Part shown: piece after piece, positions 6,873 through 17,965 of the stretch
Layout of the letters: every line of letters begins with the position of its first letter
Numbering within the stretch: the stretch's first letter is position 1
Notes under the pieces: model-generated
Told to the model about the DNA's origin: nothing
What the model saw: only the letters and a program-made list of their open reading frames with translations
The model's database searches: none
Made by a program: the position numbers and the translations under genes
From: Alphaproteobacteria bacterium
GTDB lineage: Bacteria > Pseudomonadota > Alphaproteobacteria > Rickettsiales > VGDC01
Assembly (NCBI GenBank): GCA_022450665.1
Contig: JAKUPQ010000021.1
Coordinates: 1-33,783 of the forward strand
Length of the DNA: 33,783 nucleotides
Reading direction: 5' to 3'

Positions 6873-7403
6873 TTAGTGTGTGCTAAATTGCGGGGCAGAT
6901 ATTAATCCCATCCGCTTACCAATAATGGCATTCATCCGCGATTTAAGAAGCGTATTGTAAACCAAAACAGACTTATTAAATGCCTTGATAGAGGCACCTA
7001 AATGTTCCGCATTGTCTTTCAGACTTTGCTGTATAGCTGGTAGCGTTGCATTGCCTGCTAGATTTGGGTTTTTATGAATGGTTTCCAGCATTTCACGGGC
7101 ATGCGCTTCAATACGCCAGTGAAGTTCACTACGCTTCTCAACATCGCTTTGATCTGTGGCAGCTTCTTCAGCTAATACATGTTGTAGCTGATGGGTATTT
7201 TCTTGCGTTGGGGGCGTTTCTGGTGCCAGCCAAAAGCTCTGTAAATCTCCGTAGAGTGCATAGCGCGTGTGCAGCGCCTGATTCACCTGTGCCCAAAGCG
7301 TATTCATACGCTCTTTCTGCTTGAGTACATAATGAAAACACACCGCTACCCATAAAAAATAGCCTGCAAGCACAAACACAATGGTGGCATACACATAATA
7401 CAT
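6873..7403 (-). CDS. LemA-like membrane protein
   Basis: From the ATG at 7403 this is 176 residues. It opens with an N-terminal membrane segment (YYVYATIVFVLAGYFLWVAVCF), followed by a mostly helical domain. The C-terminal VYNTLLKSRMNAIIGKRMGL resembles the YN-x-x-x-x-x-P region of LemA proteins. LemA family members are inner-membrane proteins with a helical bundle of unclear function, often near stress or proteolysis genes. The start was chosen because GAAGGA lies six bases before this ATG; an open frame continues upstream into the neighbour but without a ribosome site. It is the last gene of a leftward unit with virB8, virB9 and a DUF3592-like gene, 10 bases after the latter. The LemA assignment is moderate. 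Confidence 0.6.
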   Translation of the reverse strand: MYYVYATIVFVLAGYFLWVAVCFHYVLKQKERMNTLWAQVNQALHTRYALYGDLQSFWLAPETPPTQENTHQLQHVLAEEAATDQSDVEKRSELHWRIEAHAREMLETIHKNPNLAGNATLPAIQQSLKDNAEHLGASIKAFNKSVLVYNTLLKSRMNAIIGKRMGLISAPQFSTH

Positions 7404-7413
7404 GACATTTCCT

Positions 7414-7848
7414 TCAGCCTTTAGATATAGCGCGCTCGCTAATTGCTTCACGTCGCAAGAACAGCCCTAAGATTAATGCGATTAGTGCTGCAAAACCAGA
7501 TAAAAAAGAAGGAACAATAGAATCCATGATACGCGGTAGTCGTGATTTATCAGGCGCATTGTTGGGGTAAAGCAATGTTATATCATCGCCGCTGGTATGT
7601 TCTGGTTTGATCACACCATCTTTCAATATTGTAGTAATACGTGCGCCATTTGGTAACGGCATGCTTACTATTAAATGAAACAAGCGCTGAGTACTATTGC
7701 TATTAATACGGGTTGAACGCACCTCGACACTCACCACCTTACCTGTAACCAAAGTATGGCTGTTGTGAATGTCGCGGTAATGTGAGAACAAAACCGAAAA
7801 CACGATCAACAATATTACCGTTATTGTAAAAGCAATCCGATGAGGCAC
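7414..7848 (-). CDS. DUF3592-like two-helix membrane protein
   Basis: The protein is about 144 residues, with an N-terminal membrane helix (IAFTITVILLIVFSVLF), a periplasmic beta-rich stretch and a C-terminal helix (FLSGFAALIALILGLFL). The layout, a short extracytoplasmic domain with a TGKVVSVEVR start and a VTLLYPNNAP-like turn before the second helix, is that of DUF3592 proteins. Their function is unknown. The start is taken as the GTG at 7848 because the strong ribosome site AGGAGG ends seven bases before it; the GTG two codons earlier is too close to that site. It sits between virB9 and the LemA-like gene on the same strand. Confidence 0.6.
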   Translation of the reverse strand: MPHRIAFTITVILLIVFSVLFSHYRDIHNSHTLVTGKVVSVEVRSTRINSNSTQRLFHLIVSMPLPNGARITTILKDGVIKPEHTSGDDITLLYPNNAPDKSRLPRIMDSIVPSFLSGFAALIALILGLFLRREAISERAISKG

Positions 7849-7882: not shown

Positions 7883-8791
7883 TTATTTCGGTGCAGTCGC
7901 CTCAGATTCTCTTAAACTTGGGGTATTGCTTCCCGAACGACGATCGTAGTTTGGTTGTGTAGTTTCATCTTCACCGAACTGATACCATTTTTTCTTGGAG
8001 ATTGGTCGTGGTGTAGCACCCGAGGTACGTACGCCCATGTTACGGTTGAAGATACAAACCACATCTTGTCCGTGACGTAAAGTAAACTGTGCTGCCACAC
8101 GCTCAACAATGATGTAATTGCCACGGGCGCGGAAGTTGATGATTGATTCACTACCATCACCATGTACTAAGAAAAATGCTGGCACTTCTGCGTTTTTATC
8201 ACGAAATTCAAAATAGGTGAATTCACCATCGTCAAAAATACGAATGGGCGAAATTTCTTCTGCGCCAGTAAGCGCATAATCGAAGTTGTACTTTTCTGGC
8301 TCGATCATCGGGTCAGGCACGCTATCAATATAGTTACTCACGCCAATGCCTGCACCGCGTCCATAGATAAAGCGCATAACAAACACCATATCCGGATCAT
8401 TGATATTTTCTGCCATTTCGGCATGTAACTCAAAGTGGTATGTGCGTTTGTTGGTAATCACTGTCATGTTTGTCAATGCATCTTGCTGCACCGGCTTAAT
8501 AAATATACGATTTCCGGCTGGTGTGATTTGCCAGGTAACCGAATTTCCCATCGAGACGGTAAAAACTTCTTCGTCTGATTCAAATTCAATTACGGATTGA
8601 TAATCATAATGGCCGACAAACTTGAACACTTCATTTGCATTATATACTACGGTTCGAATGCGTTTATCGGCAGCTATTGGCTTGGATTCTTTAAGCGCGT
8701 AAGCAGGTTGGGCGGTCGAAAAGGTTAGCACGGTAGCGGCGCTGACGCCCATAACACATGTTAAAACCAAGGTTCGAAAGGTGTTTTTCAT
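7883..8791 (-). CDS. virB9: VirB9/TrbG-family type IV secretion protein
   Basis: This 302-residue protein has a signal peptide (cleavage near QPAYALKE). The N-terminal VirB9 domain includes VYNANEVFKF, IEFESDEEVFTVSMG, WQITPAGNRIFIKP and TNMTVITNKRTYHFEL. The C-terminal beta-sandwich includes PIRIFDDGEFTYFEF, PAFFLVHGDGSE and YIIVERVAAQFTLRHG. In a VirB-type T4SS this is the outer part of the core complex, bound to VirB7 and VirB10. It follows virB8 with a 2-base gap, and its ribosome site lies inside the end of virB8. No virB10, virB4, virB6, virB11 or virD4 appears in the window. That suits a scattered T4SS, as in Rickettsiales-type systems, or a repurposed pair. The C-terminal tail after about residue 265 is polar and not conserved in the family. 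Confidence 0.85.
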   Translation of the reverse strand: MKNTFRTLVLTCVMGVSAATVLTFSTAQPAYALKESKPIAADKRIRTVVYNANEVFKFVGHYDYQSVIEFESDEEVFTVSMGNSVTWQITPAGNRIFIKPVQQDALTNMTVITNKRTYHFELHAEMAENINDPDMVFVMRFIYGRGAGIGVSNYIDSVPDPMIEPEKYNFDYALTGAEEISPIRIFDDGEFTYFEFRDKNAEVPAFFLVHGDGSESIINFRARGNYIIVERVAAQFTLRHGQDVVCIFNRNMGVRTSGATPRPISKKKWYQFGEDETTQPNYDRRSGSNTPSLRESEATAPK

Positions 8792-8793
8792 AG

Positions 8794-9528
8794 TTATTCC
8801 AATCCTAATTGCTTGCTATTGTAACCGGTTACCTTGAATATCATCGGGGTAATAGCTCCAGTCACTTGGTCTACATGAATTTTCGAGAAACGGAAAGTAA
8901 TATCTGCTCCCCATATAGATTTTCTCTCTTCTGCTCCGCCTTTTTCTGTTGCCACATACTTTGCTTTTGCACTCACTTGTAGCATTTCGGAGTCGTTCCC
9001 TCCACCGGGAGATACCACTTCTGTGTCGATAATATCAATATCAATGACATCAATACTACGTGTTGTATGGCGCTCATAAAGTGCTGTAGGACTATTAATG
9101 CTTTTATACAGCATCACATAATCATCATAAACCTGTGGTTCGCTAAGAACAAAAACGCGCTTGAAGTTAGCTTGTTGCTGCTCGATATCATACGCTTCAC
9201 GCACGTTAATAAAGTTATTTGCAAACCATGTCATTACCACAAAATTTGGATCTTGCGCGGGGTTTTCGGTCAATTGCTCAACCCGTGCAACTTTATCAAA
9301 AGAGTTAGGCACGCGCACAATCATAGTTTTTGTGTCGCTAAGTGGCATAAGCACAAACAGCCCGATAAGCGCCATAATGGTAATGAAAAACGCAAAGGCG
9401 GTAATAATAATCAGCAATGCGCGCTCGCTGATGGGTGAATGATAGCGCGTACCATACCAACGCATAGCATCGCGAAAATACTCACCAGATTCAATGCTCT
9501 CGGTAACGTCGTTTTTTATATCACTCAC
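8794..9528 (-). CDS. virB8: VirB8-family type IV secretion inner-membrane protein
   Basis: This 244-residue protein has a short cytoplasmic N-terminus containing YFRDAMRWYGTRYHSP, one membrane helix (ALLIIITAFAFFITIMALIGLFVLM) and a periplasmic NTF2-like domain. Features of the latter include FANNFINVREAYDIEQQQANFKRV, ALYERH and KAKYVATEKGG. This is the VirB8 arrangement, which assembles in the inner-membrane platform of a T4SS. The start codon is GTG at 9528 with AAAGG about eight bases upstream. It is the first gene of the leftward unit virB8-virB9-DUF3592-LemA and is divergent from the giant hydrolase gene. Confidence 0.85.
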   Translation of the reverse strand: MSDIKNDVTESIESGEYFRDAMRWYGTRYHSPISERALLIIITAFAFFITIMALIGLFVLMPLSDTKTMIVRVPNSFDKVARVEQLTENPAQDPNFVVMTWFANNFINVREAYDIEQQQANFKRVFVLSEPQVYDDYVMLYKSINSPTALYERHTTRSIDVIDIDIIDTEVVSPGGGNDSEMLQVSAKAKYVATEKGGAEERKSIWGADITFRFSKIHVDQVTGAITPMIFKVTGYNSKQLGLE

Positions 9529-9688: not shown

Positions 9689-9746
9689 GCTATAGTGGGT
9701 TCTAAGGGAGGATCCGAGCTATAGTGGGTTCTAAGGGAGGATCCGA
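9689..9746 (+). repeat. Perfect tandem duplication of a 29-bp unit
   Basis: Two adjacent identical copies, 9689-9717 and 9718-9746, each begin GCTATAGTGGG and end GGAGGATCCGA. Each contains a TATAGT word and an AAGGGAGG word resembling a ribosome site. No further copy was noticed elsewhere in the window. The unit lies 130-190 bases upstream of the preferred hydrolase start, just upstream of its candidate promoter. It may be a recent slippage duplication or a tandem binding site. Confidence 0.9.
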
Positions 9747-9785
9747 CCGCTGGCTTACACTGCCAACATCAAGCTCAGCCTTGGT

Positions 9786-9876: not shown

Positions 9877-12800
9877 ATGAAAAAAATTGGTTTCATTACG
9901 TTATTCGCTATTTTGGCACTGCCTATTAGTATGGCACATGCCGTATTAACCCGCGATGACCTCGAAAAAGATCCCCGCGCTGGCTCTACAGACGAATTTG
10001 TATGCCCACAGGCATGGCCTGTCGATTGCACCCGTGGTTCTGGTGGCTCAACCGGATGTGGTGGTTGGCAAATTATTAAAGACCTCGCCGAACCAGAAGT
10101 GTGGCCTGACTCTAGAGGTAATGCCTGCAGTACCGGCGTACGTATTGGATTAGGCAATCGCCTTGCAGAAGGGCAACCTGTGGGTGCTATGTTCCCTGGC
10201 ACGGTCATTTTTTCACAATCAGGAGATTTTCGCAGTGGGGATTTTGAAAGCCGCGACTATGGCGGAGTAGTTATTATTGAGCTAAATCTGGATGACGGCT
10301 CGCCACAATGCTATCTGCGCTATATGTTTCTTGATCGCCGCGATTTAGTCAAAACCGGCACAACTGTTGAAGCCGGGCAGCAAATTGGCTCGGTAGCCAG
10401 TAGCGATATGAACGTTACAAAAGACTGGTGGCGACGTGAATGGCCACAAATGCAGCAATCACAGGTTAAAATAGATATCGGTTGTGATGAAGCGCTGGTA
10501 AATTACCCGCAATTTATGCCATTCGAGCCGTATACCGGCTCTGGCCCCCAAGATGAACAAAGCTGTCCTTTAACAAAACTTCGCTTCCCAACGCCACCTT
10601 TAGAATATCTTGCTTCTTTTGATGCCGCTTCTAATGCGCAGTGCCGTGTTGGCTTCCGTACGGATGCGCGTGGACAGCATGAACGTGAAGGCGTATTAAT
10701 TTCCGAACCACAGGATAATAGTGAGCTAACCACCTCTCTTACAGGGCAATATGTTGAAAAAGTAAAGCCACGCGGATTTATTAAACGCAAAACCACCCCC
10801 GTACGCTCCACATTTGGCAACGCCAACACCCGTGAAGACCTTTGGAATGGTGAATTAGAACGCACCGGCAACGGCAATTTGTTCCGTAACCATTCTGAAT
10901 ACGCAAAGGCAACAAACCTGCGCTGCGCCAATATGGAGCGTGTATTAAACGGACAAGGGAATACCGAGGCCACCCCTGAAGAAATCCGCGAATATTTAAC
11001 CCATTGCAGCAACCAATATATTTTAGGGCGCTCTATGGCATTTCAGGTGTATGAACAAGCGCAGCTTGGTATCGCGGCATTAAATGCCCCGCTCCCCATG
11101 CACCTGCGAGAGTTTTTGGATGCGGAAGAACGTGTTGAATATGAAGATTGGTTGGCTGCCGGTGCCGACAACCGTATCGAAGTGCAGCATCTTATTGATA
11201 AAGTATTCTATCGCGAATTATGTCAACCACTAGCGATGCAAACCCTTGAATTTCAGGACTACGATGTCGAAAAAATTCTTGATCGCTCGTGGTATGATTT
11301 ATTGGTTCAATGGCCCATTGATAATGGCTTGGGACAGATCAACAATCCGCCAATGAAAGAAATTGAAATCAATGATTATGCTGATTACCCTTATGAGCGT
11401 ATTATTGATCCTGCACACCCGTTTTCCCCTCGCCATATTTTCGCCGAAACAGATCGTGAGCGCTATCGCGATTATGGCGTGCAATGCGCAAAAACCCCTG
11501 TGGATTTAATTTTAGGACGCTTTGGTGATGGCATAGACCGTGATATGGAGGTGCTGGGCGCACGCGACACCGTATTTCATTCATGCATCAAATGCCGTAT
11601 TGACCTCAACGAAACGAGAGAAGCGTGTATTCCTGATCCATTTAGCTTTACCAATGCTGGCGGGTGCGATGGTGGCTTTGGCCCCCTTACCGCCGATGGT
11701 GAATTATGCACCAATCTTGATCCGGCTTTAAAAACATTGATGAGTGCTTTAGAAGCAGAATTTGGTTTGTATCCTAACCTCCTGCACGCGGTAGCAACCG
11801 CAGAAAGCGGCTGCTCTGCTACTGCCACCTCACCCGTAGGTGCACAAGGTATGTTCCAGTTCATGCCAGCGACAGCAGCGGCTTATGGTATCAACCCCTG
11901 GGATCCTGAACAAGCAGCTCGAGGCTCAGCACGTTATTATAAAGACAGCGCTGATACATTCGATTGTGATTTACCGCTTATGCTTGCTTCCTATAACTGT
12001 GGGCCGGGTTGTGCAGCCCAGTTCCGCGATGGCATACGCACTAGCTTGCCTACAGAAACTCAAGGATATATCACTAAAATTCAAGCCATGCTGGGTGGTT
12101 CCGCTACTGGCTGTAGCGTAGGTGGACCTGCTGGCGGTGGTGTGCCCGGCGCTGGCGGTGGCACAGGTGGCGGCGACGTATTTGGCGGTGGCCCCGGCAC
12201 ATGTACACCCTTTACAGACCCTATAGAAATTGGCGATCCAGGCGCAACAGAGCCTTGTACACCAGGTGCACCTGTTGGCTTGGGAGGCTTTGATCCTTCC
12301 GGCTGCCCAGGAAGCTATGTTGGTAATGCCAATGCATTTGATAATGGTACGGGTGGAAAATGCCCTCCTCTAAGCTATCCTACCCCCGATCTTGCCGGTC
12401 TCGGCTTTTATGGATGTCATGGCCGTTTCTTCTACCCTCCAGGGTGCGATGGTGCATGCCAAGCACGCTTTAACAGCGGTTGCACAAGATTGAGAGGGTA
12501 TCCATACTCACCTAAAAGCATTATTTGTACGGATGGTTGCCCCGGACGTATTCATGAAGGCATGGATATTGCCTTTGAATTTGGAGTTCCCGTATATGCT
12601 TCTGCCGATGGGGTAGTGCGGCGTATTAACAGCAGTGGATATGTTTTCATTGATCACTCCGGCGCGTGTATCGATCCTGCTTGCACCAAACGCTTTGGTA
12701 ACGGTGTGGAAACACGCTATTACCATATGGGTATGGATCGCGTTATCGTAGCTGAAGGCGACAATGTTACACGCTGTCAGCAAATAGGATCTGTAGGCGA

Positions 12801-15153
12801 TAAAAACATCGAAGGGGTGCCGCATTTGCATTATGAGGCACGAGATGTTGGTAGCAAAATGTTCCCTGGTGATACATTTGGATATTATGCATTAGACCAA
12901 ACAGAGCGTTACCATGCGCATGTGGAAGATAAATCCTGCACCGGCGGCTTGACCGATGCAGAGGCGCGCATGGGTGACCAAGGCATTTGTAAAATGAAAC
13001 TCCCTGTGGAAGTTCGCGGCCAGAACGATCTCGATCCGCCGCCATTCCTTGAAGATTTTGATTACAAGAATGTAGAAGTACCTGTACCCGGATCGGAAGG
13101 ACATCACACCGTATTCGATCACGAAGTTGGTGGTATGATATATGAAGGAGCATGGACCCGTTGTACGGATCCCCTGCTTCCGCCAGATGCAGAAACCTTA
13201 TGCACATCGCTCAATGAAGACAATGCCCCCGGTGGAGGACCCGGTGGAGGCGGCGGTAGTGGCAGCCCTGTGGATCCCGATCCAGGTGCTACACCTCCCC
13301 CAGCTACTGGTAGTGCAGGTTATATCAATCCAATACCATGTGGAGTAGTCACAAGCGAATTTGGTATGCGCGTGAACCCTGTTTCCGGTATTTTAAAACT
13401 GCATGGCGGCGTTGATATTGCAGATGGCCAAAGTCCTACGTCCGTACCGCTTTTAGCAGCATCCGGTGGCACAATCAGCATACGAAGTTCTGATCCAAGC
13501 TATGGTAACTTTACACAAATTACTCACGCTGATGGATCCGTAACACGTTATGCTCACCAAAGCTCTGCATGTCCTTTAACAATAGGGCAAAATGTAGTGC
13601 AGGGACAAGTGATCGGCTTTCAAGGTGCTACAGGTAATGTTACTGGATCACACTTGCATTTCGAAGTAAAAGAGACGGCAACTACCGAACGCATTGATCC
13701 GCAACCGTTAATTCCTGCACAGGCACCTGGAGCACCAATGTGTGCATCTTACTATAATGCAACATGCGGCAATGTTATTAGCGGGCAGCCTACCGGCGGT
13801 GGACTTGGTGGGGCAGTTGGTAAGACTCTCTGCATCCAAAAGCCCTGCTCTTTGCGCTATGATCATTCGGATCTGGTATCGCAATGCGCATGGGCCGAAG
13901 ACAAAGGTGGCTGCGGCACACTCGGCAACTACTTCCAACGTTACGAAGGAGATTCCGGTGGCGATTGCTGCTATAAGGCAACCGCGCCCGTTGCACCGCT
14001 CAACACACTCAAGCTCCGTCCGGGCTATGATGGTGAAGCGAAAGTGGTAGGTGCTATCAACGCCAATCAAAGGCAACGTGGCGGTTGGCCGGGGGTTCGC
14101 GTCGATGACAGCAATTCCGAAGGGCTTAAAGGCGAAGGCGGCAACGTCAACCCTAGCGCTGCTAATCCCGGAATACCGGAGGGCTATACTTTCCATGAAC
14201 ATTTCCGCGACCACCGCCCCTATATGCGTTGGTGGGACACGGGAGCTGAAAGTGGCAACATATTAATGGACAGCGCCGAAGCTGAAAGCATTGATGGCTC
14301 TTATGATGCACTCGTAGGTGTAGGCGTTGAAAAGAACTCCTGCGGCTATGGTGGCTGGGGTGACCCTGAGCTATCAGATCCCAATACCAGCTGGATGGAA
14401 ATGAAGCTCTATCAGGCACGCTCACAATATATGACTGGTCTGCGTTGTATTTCACGTTATGAAAAAATGTTCAAACGCGGTGCAGCAGAAGATTATGTAT
14501 TGAGTCTGGCTGGCGGTAACTTCTACAGTGCATTAACCGGCACCACCAGTACATCGGCCACTAGTATTCTTTGGCCACTGGGTTGGCGTGGATATGTGTC
14601 GGAGCCTGTGCAGGCGTTACGCTTCCCTTATTTAATCAGCATGCCGCCAACAGCAACCGGTGGCACCCCCCAATACACCAATGCTACAGGGGCGCTTATT
14701 GGTGGCGGTCTGGATCAGGCACTACCCGGCGATATCCTGATTTGGGACGAAGCCGTAGTTGGGGAAAATCGCATGCCGCATGTGGCCTATGTCGTTGCAG
14801 CCAATAATGAAGCTATGCAACGCGGCATGTCTGGTGGTGGCGCAAACCCAGATTATGTACTGACACCTAAGCGTTTCTTCCCGCCACCAGAGCGAGATGA
14901 AGTAACACCACATATACGTATTGCAGATTATAATTTCGGTAAATACCCCGATGTATGCGGCAATACTAACTGGTGGGGCGTTGGTCCAGAGCGGACGCTT
15001 TATAAAGGCGAGATACCAGAGAATTTAAGTGCAGCAGCCCAGCGTAGAAATATCGATGACACAAGCTGCGATAATACCGATCTGATTGCCTGCGTAGAAA
15101 ACTATTGGGGTGATGTTAAAATTTACCGCCCGTGGTTGGATGTGCGTGACTAA
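9877..15153 (+). CDS. Giant secreted multi-domain peptidoglycan hydrolase (SLT + M23 domains)
   Basis: From the ATG at 9877 (AGG six bases upstream) this is about 1758 residues, with signal peptide MKKIGFITLFAILALPISMAHA. In order: a degenerate LytM-like fold (about 87-173) without the metal histidines; a cysteine-containing region of unknown fold; a lytic transglycosylase domain (about 618-738, catalytic Glu643 in ATAESG, then GAQGMFQFMP and ASYNCGPG); a Gly-rich linker; an M23 domain with HEGMD (His893, Asp897), His950 and HLHYE (983-987); a second Gly-rich linker; an M23 domain with HGGVD (1176-1180), His1227 and HLHFE (1259-1263). The end has LPGDILIWD and PHVAYVV (His1635), resembling NlpC/CHAP-type folds, with Cys1489 as possible nucleophile. 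It should cut both glycan strands and peptide crosslinks in the periplasm or a target wall. virB8/virB9 are divergent from it. Confidence 0.85.
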   Translation: MKKIGFITLFAILALPISMAHAVLTRDDLEKDPRAGSTDEFVCPQAWPVDCTRGSGGSTGCGGWQIIKDLAEPEVWPDSRGNACSTGVRIGLGNRLAEGQPVGAMFPGTVIFSQSGDFRSGDFESRDYGGVVIIELNLDDGSPQCYLRYMFLDRRDLVKTGTTVEAGQQIGSVASSDMNVTKDWWRREWPQMQQSQVKIDIGCDEALVNYPQFMPFEPYTGSGPQDEQSCPLTKLRFPTPPLEYLASFDAASNAQCRVGFRTDARGQHEREGVLISEPQDNSELTTSLTGQYVEKVKPRGFIKRKTTPVRSTFGNANTREDLWNGELERTGNGNLFRNHSEYAKATNLRCANMERVLNGQGNTEATPEEIREYLTHCSNQYILGRSMAFQVYEQAQLGIAALNAPLPMHLREFLDAEERVEYEDWLAAGADNRIEVQHLIDKVFYRELCQPLAMQTLEFQDYDVEKILDRSWYDLLVQWPIDNGLGQINNPPMKEIEINDYADYPYERIIDPAHPFSPRHIFAETDRERYRDYGVQCAKTPVDLILGRFGDGIDRDMEVLGARDTVFHSCIKCRIDLNETREACIPDPFSFTNAGGCDGGFGPLTADGELCTNLDPALKTLMSALEAEFGLYPNLLHAVATAESGCSATATSPVGAQGMFQFMPATAAAYGINPWDPEQAARGSARYYKDSADTFDCDLPLMLASYNCGPGCAAQFRDGIRTSLPTETQGYITKIQAMLGGSATGCSVGGPAGGGVPGAGGGTGGGDVFGGGPGTCTPFTDPIEIGDPGATEPCTPGAPVGLGGFDPSGCPGSYVGNANAFDNGTGGKCPPLSYPTPDLAGLGFYGCHGRFFYPPGCDGACQARFNSGCTRLRGYPYSPKSIICTDGCPGRIHEGMDIAFEFGVPVYASADGVVRRINSSGYVFIDHSGACIDPACTKRFGNGVETRYYHMGMDRVIVAEGDNVTRCQQIGSVGDKNIEGVPHLHYEARDVGSKMFPGDTFGYYALDQTERYHAHVEDKSCTGGLTDAEARMGDQGICKMKLPVEVRGQNDLDPPPFLEDFDYKNVEVPVPGSEGHHTVFDHEVGGMIYEGAWTRCTDPLLPPDAETLCTSLNEDNAPGGGPGGGGGSGSPVDPDPGATPPPATGSAGYINPIPCGVVTSEFGMRVNPVSGILKLHGGVDIADGQSPTSVPLLAASGGTISIRSSDPSYGNFTQITHADGSVTRYAHQSSACPLTIGQNVVQGQVIGFQGATGNVTGSHLHFEVKETATTERIDPQPLIPAQAPGAPMCASYYNATCGNVISGQPTGGGLGGAVGKTLCIQKPCSLRYDHSDLVSQCAWAEDKGGCGTLGNYFQRYEGDSGGDCCYKATAPVAPLNTLKLRPGYDGEAKVVGAINANQRQRGGWPGVRVDDSNSEGLKGEGGNVNPSAANPGIPEGYTFHEHFRDHRPYMRWWDTGAESGNILMDSAEAESIDGSYDALVGVGVEKNSCGYGGWGDPELSDPNTSWMEMKLYQARSQYMTGLRCISRYEKMFKRGAAEDYVLSLAGGNFYSALTGTTSTSATSILWPLGWRGYVSEPVQALRFPYLISMPPTATGGTPQYTNATGALIGGGLDQALPGDILIWDEAVVGENRMPHVAYVVAANNEAMQRGMSGGGANPDYVLTPKRFFPPPERDEVTPHIRIADYNFGKYPDVCGNTNWWGVGPERTLYKGEIPENLSAAAQRRNIDDTSCDNTDLIACVENYWGDVKIYRPWLDVRD

Positions 15154-15187
15154 TGTCAGGTTGTTTTAAGAACAAGTGAGGTTTGCA

Positions 15188-15643
15188 ATGTTAACTGGAT
15201 CATATATACATTCACTGCGGCATCTTCGAACGCAAGTTTCATCGTTTTTGTCAATCGCATTGATGTGCCAAGTATTTACATTTGGTGCTATTGGTGTGGC
15301 CACTGCCCTCACCCCCTCGGCGGCTCAAGCACAGTATAATCCTGCGGCGGCTGCCACTCGCTGTCGTCAGTTTACTACGTCAGAACGCAATATGCGCGCT
15401 CTGGCAGATAACAATGCAGCACTGAACGCATTTGTTATTTGCATTGATTTAGGTGTAGATCCACCATTGAAAGCGCGTCAGGAATATGGTCGCGGCCCTG
15501 CTGCTGGTGTAAGCATGGCGCAGGTATCTGGCCGTACTTGTCCACCATTTGCTACCTGTCTGTACGGAGCGCGTGTATTTGATGAGGTGAAGCCTGGCCC
15601 ACCCGCCGGCATCAGCCGCCGTCAGTTGATGGGTGCGCCATAA
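15188..15643 (+). CDS. Small secreted cysteine-containing protein of unknown function
   Basis: From the ATG at 15188 this is 151 residues. That start was chosen over the in-frame GTG at 15176 because GTGAGG lies six bases before it. It has a long N-terminal region and a hydrophobic signal segment ending near SAAQAQYNP. The mature part of about 100 residues has four cysteines (ATRCRQF, VICIDLG, RTCPPFATC) that could form two disulfides. I do not recognise a family. It begins 34 bases after the giant hydrolase and is probably cotranscribed, so a partner, inhibitor or anchoring role for that enzyme is possible but only inferred from position. Confidence 0.65.
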   Translation: MLTGSYIHSLRHLRTQVSSFLSIALMCQVFTFGAIGVATALTPSAAQAQYNPAAAATRCRQFTTSERNMRALADNNAALNAFVICIDLGVDPPLKARQEYGRGPAAGVSMAQVSGRTCPPFATCLYGARVFDEVKPGPPAGISRRQLMGAP

Positions 15644-15646
15644 GTG

Positions 15647-16393
15647 TCACGCTGAGTTAACGCATAGGTCGTGCAATCGTTTTTCGGCAGATGCTTTACC
15701 GCTTCCATCACCTACATGAAGCCACACCCCTTCATGCGCAATACCCCTGAAATATGGCAGCGTGCGGTCGGGGTTGATGCTTTTGTTATACAGTACATTC
15801 ATAGAGAATGCCCCGTCAGGAGCATCATTGAAGATACGTGGGTGCAACAATTGAATACCTGCAAAAATAAATGGTACGGTTTCGTGCTCTCCCCGCCGTT
15901 GCAGCACCCCTTCCGCACCCATGGAAAAGTCTCCCCGCCCATAATATCCTGAGGCATTAGCGGCGCTGGCCATCAGCATCAGCCCATCCATCTCTTCGGG
16001 ATCCCAACGCTCTGCCATAGATTGCAACAAAGGGCGGGCGCCATTCAAACTAATTACATCGCTGTTGAGTACAAAAAACGGCTCATCGCCCAATAGCGGT
16101 AAGGCATTTTTGATACCACCTCCCGTTTCAAGTGGCTCCCCCTCTTCGCGGGAGATAATAATGGTGGGGCTGGCGCGCTGGCTCAAATACGCTTCCAGCA
16201 CATCTGCCATATACGACGTATTTACTACTACTTCATTAATCCCAGCGCTTTGCACTAAATCCAGCGACCAATCAATGAGCGGTTTGCCACCAACTTGCAC
16301 CAAAGGCTTAGGCACCGAATCGTCATGGCTACGCATGCGTTTGCCATAACCCGCGGCCAAAATCATTGCTTTTTTAGGAAAGTAACCCTTCAT
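15647..16393 (-). CDS. murU: N-acetylmuramate-1-phosphate uridylyltransferase
   Basis: This 248-residue nucleotidyltransferase has the sugar-nucleotide signature AMILAAGYGKRMR, followed by PKPLVQVGGKPLIDWSLD and the metal-site region FFVLNSDVI. It transfers UMP to MurNAc-1-phosphate, giving UDP-MurNAc. This is the recycling route that bypasses de novo MurA/MurB synthesis and hence fosfomycin. The identification over other NTP-transferases rests on its position directly after amgK. The start is the ATG at 16393, whose ATGA overlaps the amgK stop, a sign of translational coupling; an upstream in-frame start would intrude further into amgK. It is the last gene of the tsaE-amgK-murU operon and nearly touches the end of the convergent small secreted protein gene. 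Confidence 0.85.
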   Translation of the reverse strand: MKGYFPKKAMILAAGYGKRMRSHDDSVPKPLVQVGGKPLIDWSLDLVQSAGINEVVVNTSYMADVLEAYLSQRASPTIIISREEGEPLETGGGIKNALPLLGDEPFFVLNSDVISLNGARPLLQSMAERWDPEEMDGLMLMASAANASGYYGRGDFSMGAEGVLQRRGEHETVPFIFAGIQLLHPRIFNDAPDGAFSMNVLYNKSINPDRTLPYFRGIAHEGVWLHVGDGSGKASAEKRLHDLCVNSA

Positions 16394-17457
16394 GATATTG
16401 CACTCGCCGGAGTTAAAGTAATTGCCCCACGCCATTGCGGCTGAATATGCTGTTCGATCCAGTCGCGAATATCCGCCATTACGGGGTGCTGTAAATCATG
16501 CATGAAATGTCCCCAGACGCGTGGTAAAAATTTAGTGTAGTGGGTTTTACCATCGCGTATCCCAAGACGCACAAATATGCCAATAATTTTTGCTTGCCGC
16601 TGCGCGCCTAAGATCGCGTATGTTTGCATAAAGCTATCATAATCACACGAAGTCAGAGTGCAATAATGCTCAATTGCAGCTTCGACCGTTTGTGGCAAAA
16701 CATCGCGCCGCGCATCTTCGAGCAGCGACACCATATCATAAGCGCAATGGCCAATAAGCGCATCCTGAAAATCCAGCAGCCCTACTCGATTCACCCTCTC
16801 GCGTTGTGGTAGCCACAATAGATTATCTGCATGATAATCACGCAATACAACCACATTATTTTGCAGGGGATATTTTGCTAAAAGCTGGCTCCATAACGCC
16901 AAAAACTCTGCATTAAGCGTTTCACATTCGGCAGCATCGTTAATCACTGCAGGCATAAACCAATCGGTAAATAATGCCAACTCGCGCATGAGTGCTGCGC
17001 TGTTATATTCTGGCACATTCAAACTGATAGGGCGCTGAATGTTATCATTATGTAAATGCGCCAATGCTTCAATTGCTGAAAGATATAGTTGTTTTTCCTG
17101 ATCCGCGAGCGTTGCATCATTGCAATTAGCCAATAAGCGTGTGTAGGAATCATCACCCAGATCTTCTAACAGCAAAAACCCATTTTGCTTATCCTCTGCA
17201 ATAATTTGCGGCACTGTCAGACCAATGCTTTGCAGATATTTATCCACCAGTATAAAAGGCGCAATATCTTCTTTTTCTGGTGGCGCATCCATTAGCACCG
17301 CTTGCTTGCCATTATGGAACACACGCTCATAACGGCGAAAAGAGGCATCTCCGGCTAAAGGCTTTAATGTAGCTCCTTGCCACCCGGCATCATCCACAAA
17401 TTGCCGCATTGCCTCTGCACGCGTTGCAAACTGTTTTTCTTTTAACGTTTTAGTCAT
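16390..17457 (-). CDS. amgK: N-acetylmuramate/N-acetylglucosamine kinase
   Basis: The protein is about 355 residues with an aminoglycoside-phosphotransferase-like fold. GDASFRRYERV lies in the N-lobe. The catalytic loop is RDYHADNLLW (Asp acting as base, Asn binding metal), and LLDFQDALIG carries the metal-binding Asp. AmgK phosphorylates the anomeric carbon of MurNAc and GlcNAc released from the wall, making the MurU substrate. The start is taken as ATG at 17457 (MTKTLKEKQF); an ATG four codons upstream is also possible. Its start overlaps the end of tsaE and its end overlaps murU by 4 bases, so the three genes form a tight operon. Recycling of wall sugars is interesting beside a large wall hydrolase. 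Confidence 0.88.
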   Translation of the reverse strand: MTKTLKEKQFATRAEAMRQFVDDAGWQGATLKPLAGDASFRRYERVFHNGKQAVLMDAPPEKEDIAPFILVDKYLQSIGLTVPQIIAEDKQNGFLLLEDLGDDSYTRLLANCNDATLADQEKQLYLSAIEALAHLHNDNIQRPISLNVPEYNSAALMRELALFTDWFMPAVINDAAECETLNAEFLALWSQLLAKYPLQNNVVVLRDYHADNLLWLPQRERVNRVGLLDFQDALIGHCAYDMVSLLEDARRDVLPQTVEAAIEHYCTLTSCDYDSFMQTYAILGAQRQAKIIGIFVRLGIRDGKTHYTKFLPRVWGHFMHDLQHPVMADIRDWIEQHIQPQWRGAITLTPASAIS

Positions 17458-17965
17458 GGCGCGATGCATCCCATTTATATCTAATCTCTTTTAATGTGGC
17501 TACCATAGTTCCACTGGCAGCAACATGCAATCTGCGACCATCATTTTTATCATCATGGGAAATGGTGATTTCAAGACGGGTAGCGGGCCATAATGCTTCG
17601 GCAATTTCTGGCCATTCGACAATTACCAATGCATTTTCTAAGGTTTCTTCCAAGCCTAATTCCCAACATTCCTGCGGATGCTCCAGACGGTATAAATCAA
17701 AGTGCTGAATCACAAAAGCACCTTTTTCTGGCATGGCGTCATAATTTTGCACCAGCATAAAACTAGGACTTACAACTTCTGTGTTTTCACCACACAAGCT
17801 GCGAATAAAAGCACGTGCAAAAGTGGTTTTTCCTGAGCCTAGCGTACCTTTTAGCAATATGGTTTCGTGTCCATGCATAAACGCTGCAAAACACTGTGCA
17901 AAACCAAGTGTATCCGTCTCGTTTGGCAAGGTAATATCCCAGCGATATATGTGTGTTGCGTCCAT
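17450..17965 (-). CDS. tsaE: tRNA threonylcarbamoyladenosine biosynthesis ATPase
   Basis: This 171-residue protein is the TsaE ATPase. Walker A reads GTLGSGKTTFARAFIR, SPSFMLVQNYD is the switch region, and HFDLYRLEHPQECWELGLEE plus VIVEWPEIA are characteristic. TsaE drives the TsaB-TsaD complex that makes t6A at position 37 of ANN-decoding tRNAs in the cytoplasm. It is the first gene of the tsaE-amgK-murU unit, an order common in alphaproteobacteria. The ribosome site is poorly placed: GGTGA directly abuts the ATG. No better start was found. It is divergent from the MotB-like pair across a 103-base spacer. Confidence 0.92.
   Translation of the reverse strand: MDATHIYRWDITLPNETDTLGFAQCFAAFMHGHETILLKGTLGSGKTTFARAFIRSLCGENTEVVSPSFMLVQNYDAMPEKGAFVIQHFDLYRLEHPQECWELGLEETLENALVIVEWPEIAEALWPATRLEITISHDDKNDGRRLHVAASGTMVATLKEIRYKWDASRHD

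Follow-up and report, generated by a model that had tools for sequence, protein, structure and literature searches.

A giant exported protein with wall-hydrolase domains beside a second virB8-virB9 pair in a Rickettsiales genome, and a backbone conserved in its order

The locus and the secretion genes of its genome

The stretch of DNA analysed here (33,783 nucleotides; hereafter the window) is a single contig from an assembly of 2.48 Mb (99% complete) that belongs to the order Rickettsiales and is a MAG, like all the genomes of this order that were compared. Its forward strand encodes a giant exported protein of 1758 residues (9877-15153; residues 52-1809 of P0001) in a reading frame that is open from position 9724 and whose stop codon ends at 15153. 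The first ATG that is followed by a signal peptide lies at 9877 and was taken as the natural start; the Sec signal peptide predicted there from the sequence (MKKIGFITLFAILALPISMAHA, 9877-9942, forward strand) has a hydropathy peak of 2.17 and an AxA-type end, in agreement with the export that a preliminary description of the locus had proposed. A similar N-terminal segment is found in nearly all relatives with a complete N-terminus. Transcribed divergently from the giant gene, as had also been described, are virB8 (8794-9528, reverse strand) and virB9 (7883-8791, reverse strand), both identified by profile match. A short tandem duplication, ctatagtgggttctaagggaggatccga, is present in two copies (9691-9750) in the intergenic region between virB8 and the giant gene, near the start of the open frame and ahead of the natural ATG. 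Two genes past virB9 lies a LemA-family gene (6873-7451, reverse strand), a homologue of which also follows virB9 at the locus of the only full-length relative of the giant (L034).

A profile search found VirB9 of the window's type encoded in 335 of 344 genomes of the order. The genome to which the window belongs has virB3, virB10, virB11 and virD4, two copies each of virB2, virB4, virB8 and virB9, and three of virB6 (at least two clear copies and one weak copy below the cut-off), spread over separate islands. Duplicated virB4, virB8 and virB9, multicopy virB6 and split islands are the pattern of rvh systems (PMC2653234, PMC11077975), and all of these features are present; thus, the machine of this genome has the hallmarks of an rvh T4SS, and it is complete. 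The virB8 and virB9 genes of the window are the stand-alone second pair, of which virB8 is divergent in sequence (73.7 bits in the profile match, against 139.7 for the main-cluster copy), and it is this pair that the giant gene adjoins. A genome-wide SLT search found just two SLT proteins, the giant and a 690-aa frame, and no small VirB1-type protein; because the 690-aa frame is of Slt70 size, the giant is the sole VirB1 candidate found. M23 domains are encoded in seven other places of the genome.

Domains of the giant protein

In order, the giant comprises the signal peptide, a degenerate M23 domain, a module named here after its HPFSPR motif, an intact SLT domain, two intact M23 domains, and a CHAP-like C-terminal domain (CTD). 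A Pfam scan delineated three M23 stretches (whole-protein E 1.7e-46) and one SLT domain (E 6e-15), matches of a strength that lies far from chance, and detected no pilin or adhesin homology. The chain is cysteine-containing, as had been noted, with 54 cysteines that occur in every segment. It had also been called a polyprotein; that reading was rejected, as no sign of processing was seen.

The SLT lytic-transglycosylase-type domain (11746-12018, forward strand) matches its family with 55.3 bits and has a putative catalytic Glu643 (E694 of P0001) in an ES motif, followed by GAQGMFQFMPATA and ASYNCGPG; the catalytic Glu, a GxQGMFQ... stretch and an AYN-type motif, by which the SLT family is recognized, are thus all present. 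M23 domain a (12550-12861, forward strand) has intact ligands H893, D897 and H985 with base H983, and M23 domain b (13399-13695, forward strand) has intact ligands H1176, D1180 and H1261 with base H1259. Both score over the Pfam cut-off and have the zinc-binding and catalytic motifs of the M23 fold, HxxxD and HxH. The closest solved relatives of domain b are NMB0315-type proteins, DipM and ShyA, which are endopeptidases. The preliminary description had placed Glu643 and the six M23 ligands correctly, and its content of one SLT and two complete M23 domains is borne out by Pfam and motifs; the two bases are added here. Its degenerate LytM-like domain without histidines was recovered as well (about 10159-10407, forward strand); over residues 146-260 it shares 67% identity with the relative, and it is thus conserved, though not catalytic.

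The full-length relative was found by a whole-protein search in another genome of the same family (G001) and is 47% identical to the giant. Between these two proteins identity is 67% in the degenerate M23 domain, 69% in the front of the CTD, 44% in the SLT domain and 35% in M23 domain a, in which the relative has lost the first His of HxH. Since the degenerate M23 domain and the CTD front are better conserved than the SLT domain and M23 domain a, the non-catalytic parts are under strong constraint.

The CTD (14143-15150, core 14371-15150, forward strand) is a previously undescribed, conserved domain. A first model had a pLDDT of 58.5; VIA-align already put CHAP folds on top for it, and Foldseek returned nothing meaningful. 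For a second model (pLDDT 80, pTM 0.80), built from a deeper, trimmed alignment, all 10 of 10 VIA-align matches listed were CHAP/amidase folds from several unrelated proteins (Z 3.9-5.6), and no CHAP entry was among the top 50 of Foldseek. A PDB profile search with the CTD gave no match, and one homologue scored 24.4 bits (E 4.3e-5) against Pfam CHAP, just below the cut-off of 26. The CTD is therefore only provisionally assigned a CHAP fold on the strength of the model, and is labelled CHAP-like because Z was moderate and Foldseek by itself gave no match. The end of the protein had been described as possibly NlpC/CHAP-like; NlpC/P60 had no Pfam match and was rejected in favour of CHAP, which fits better. 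Among the CHAP-fold amidases that the model resembles are Ly7917, the phi812 hub CHAP and GspSA, from which the CTD family differs in retaining the catalytic His in about half of its members, in having extra conserved cysteines and in falling below the Pfam cut-off. The alignment places a putative triad at Cys1524 (codon 14446-14448), His1635 (14779-14781) and Asn1686 (14932-14934), all on the forward strand, which are conserved in 28, 14 and 23 of 29 members, respectively; another four cysteines are invariant or almost invariant. The window protein has all three residues and its CTD is possibly catalytic, but a Cys-His-Asn/Glu triad is not found family-wide, and catalysis is not the common function of the CTD family.

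A backbone shared across the order and its place beside virB8-virB9

Besides the one full-length relative, the whole-protein search found many giants that are alike in the C-terminal part only. A profile of the CTD identified it in 52 genomes from 14 families, out of 344 genomes of the order, but in none of 381 sampled genomes of other Alphaproteobacteria (a thin sample), and none was found on plasmids. As a rule there is one backbone copy per genome, and the giants range from 695 to 2709 aa. The HPFSPR module (11305-11508, forward strand; residues 528-595 of P0001) is a second common module, VERIxDPxHPFSPR in motif form; of 19 giants, 15 have it upstream of the CTD. Only the giant of L044 has a convincing second membrane segment. 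The same protein (L044:5706-11618, reverse strand; family f9, genome G009) has at residues 511-583 a segment resembling VirB2/TrbC pilins (45 bits), in one chain with the CHAP-like domain. The variable N-terminal part of another giant (L038:9814-13050, forward strand) consists of six MgtE_N-like helical repeats (E 2.2e-39). At L041 (5906-14344; family f22), three exported, Cys-rich large genes stand in a row around a backbone copy (1235, 695 and 867 aa, the last with 82 Cys), about 16 kb from virB8 and virB9.

Downstream of the giant gene is a gene for an exported partner with a C-x(n)-C..G.DPP domain (15176-15643, forward strand), which is a separate gene in nine loci. Eight giants have an internal CTD, and in seven of them a DPP motif occurs in the tail past it, a number reached in none of 2000 shuffles; a profile of the DPP domain was not significant on these fused tails, so that fusion is proposed at the level of the motif. 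That some families encode giant and DPP partner in a single gene and others in two suggests that they act together. DPP partners are long, Gly/Thr-rich and repeat-like, and occur also beside giants without hydrolases. A further stretch that looks CHAP-like (PPQAGDIAVIIDGRYCVGQAAVIQSVD... in L046) follows the DPP motif in the C-terminal tails of the giants of L044 and L046 and suggests a repeated fold. HPFSPR module, CHAP-like CTD and DPP partner together constitute an undescribed backbone that, among the genomes sampled, is specific to the order.

The hydrolase domains do not belong to what is conserved among the giants: in the Pfam scan of 19 giants, only the window protein and its relative in G001 have SLT or M23 domains, and the other 17 have neither. 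Between the HPFSPR module and the CTD lie 97-494 aa in other giants but 879-886 aa in the family of the window, because in this family SLT-M23-M23 occupies the gap. The simplest reading of these sequences is that the SLT-M23-M23 cassette was inserted into an older backbone in this lineage only.

When CTD and VirB9 coordinates were crossed, 25 genomes, from 11 families, had the giant beside virB8-virB9 and in divergent orientation, with a chance estimate over families of about 5e-19 (assuming independence and random placement within 12 kb), and the contigs G322, G320 and G342 continue the pattern. Thus, position links the backbone to rvhB8-rvhB9 in 11 families, and the connection to the T4SS that had been inferred from position holds. 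Orthologues away from T4SS genes, which the preliminary description had named as refuting evidence, were encountered in part: adjacency is not shown in 27 of the 52 backbone genomes, in some of them due to short contigs (for at least one, G040, a contig break is a possible cause), and the giant is never adjacent to virB8 and virB9 in family f23, nor in f6, f9 and most of f22. Ordinary genes lie upstream of rvhB8 in families f7, f17, f21 and f27. The CTD was not found in families whose small genomes match the profile of intracellular Rickettsiales and which are presumably the intracellular ones.

It is very unlikely that the giant is just a common wall hydrolase for housekeeping or predation that stands beside virB8 and virB9 by accident. 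M23 and SLT are common housekeeping domains, the genome has its other M23 genes, and in some families the backbone lies away from virB8-virB9; however, recurrence of the same divergent virB8-virB9 pair as a neighbour in so many families already disfavours accident, and so does the near-absence of the backbone outside the order.

Possible role in the rvh machine

The leading reading, to which we give an even chance, is that the giant is a Sec-exported periplasmic component of the rvh machine with a VirB1-like wall-opening role in this lineage. Made from the divergent neighbour of the second virB8-virB9 pair, it would be exported by Sec to the periplasm, where the backbone may dock on VirB8 and VirB9, the two proteins to which VirB1 peptides map in the classical system (PMC2653234). 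The cassette would act where the machine crosses the wall, SLT cutting glycan strands and M23 cutting peptide cross-links, and the giant would thereby be the VirB1 of the rvh machine. VirB1 of Agrobacterium and Brucella, and the small lytic transglycosylase proposed as virB1 of Rickettsia, are likewise exported SLT proteins linked to virB8/virB9 of P-type T4SSs. Signal peptide, SLT domain and virB8/virB9 neighbourhood are present in the giant, but the SLT domain is absent from most of its relatives; VirB1 is a one-domain protein of about 240-290 aa (PMC2653234), whereas the giant has 1758 aa and includes peptidases. That VirB1 is small and encoded with the main cluster, and the giant beside the duplicated pair, counts against the reading, as do the missing adjacencies and the lost His in M23 domain a of the only full-length relative. 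The backbone of other families, in which no hydrolase was recognized, likewise implies that wall cutting is not the common function.

The closest parallel to the giant, judged by architecture, is the VirB1-like PrgK of the enterococcal plasmid pCF10, in which LytM, SLT and CHAP domains are combined in one T4SS protein (PMC11323569), so that the earlier premise of one small transglycosylase per T4SS does not hold universally. PrgK, like TraG of pIP501, is one exported T4SS-linked chain with degenerate LytM/M23, SLT and CHAP domains; a VirB8-like protein is its binding partner, and SLT is regulated by the degenerate LytM domain and by the CHAP domain, which is apparently inactive (PMC11323569). 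The giant's gene adjoins virB8. By analogy, the degenerate M23 and CHAP-like domains of the giant may bind peptidoglycan or restrain the enzymes. The giant differs in having two more intact M23 domains, the HPFSPR module, twice the size and a Gram-negative rvh machine, and no membrane anchor was seen in it.

An alternative that we regard as rather doubtful is a weapon, a wall-degrading effector or spike placed by rvh on or in a neighbouring bacterium, in which the conserved C-terminal half would serve for export or docking and the N-terminal part would be changeable cargo. It has been proposed that non-host-restricted Rickettsiales use rvh to kill bacteria, and M23 and peptidoglycan-binding proteins have been noted there (PMC9352585, PMC11077975); a variable N-terminal and a conserved C-terminal part in a T4SS neighbourhood also resemble X-T4SS effectors with peptidoglycan-hydrolase domains (PMC6536674). 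Such effectors have no Sec signal peptide, but the giant has one by hydropathy and its AxA-type end, and the fact that nearly all members whose N-terminus is complete have one too speaks against loading from the cytosol by VirD4. An XVIPCD-type C-terminal signal is another mark of these effectors; the conserved C-terminal domain of the giant is of CHAP-like fold. Most relatives are also without a recognisable toxin domain, and there is no sign of a dedicated immunity gene, the DPP partner being unlike an immunity protein since it also accompanies hydrolase-free giants. The usual single copy, fixed place and signal peptide fit a machine part better than an effector repertoire.

It is unlikely that the backbone serves chiefly as a structural or adhesive element on the surface of rvh (a stalk, pilus base or substitute for VirB5), with the cassette as a secondary add-on of one lineage. 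This would suit the lack of VirB5 in rvh systems (PMC2653234), the hydrolase-free giants of other families, the pilin-like segment in L044, the repeat-like character of the DPP partners and the inconstant CHAP His, but would leave the intact SLT and both M23 active sites of the window protein unexplained, and that protein has neither pilin nor adhesin homology.

With the periplasmic wall-opening component as the leading reading, the giant would be a T4SS wall enzyme of several domains whose rvh-linked backbone is also undescribed; it suggests a wall-opening part not described before and adds a Gram-negative counterpart to the PrgK-type enzymes. On the current view, the rvh system of typhus-group relatives first served to attack bacteria and was later turned to the manipulation of host cells, and no wall-directed rvh part was known before from non-host-restricted lineages; the backbone family, which spans 14 families and was absent from all others sampled, is a concrete, position-linked candidate, by which the idea of a bacteria-killing ancestor becomes testable on a defined protein and the duplicated rvhB8/rvhB9 pair gains a possible purpose. 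A broader scenario, which we consider speculative and rather improbable, is that extracellular Rickettsiales have an undescribed T4SS component family, in which the CHAP-fold backbone and the DPP partner carry exchangeable cargo, for breaching walls, perhaps of other bacteria; it would have been lost with intracellular life and be a relic of a bacteria-attacking rvh ancestor.

Downstream of the giant module are tsaE, an aminoglycoside-phosphotransferase-like gene (AmgK-type) and a nucleotidyltransferase gene (MurU-type), which are possible wall-recycling genes (window 15647-17965). This set, in whole or in part, is also present downstream of the giant module in L034, L039, L040, L042, L045, L049 and L050; of these, L049 is a locus where virB8 and virB9 are not adjacent.
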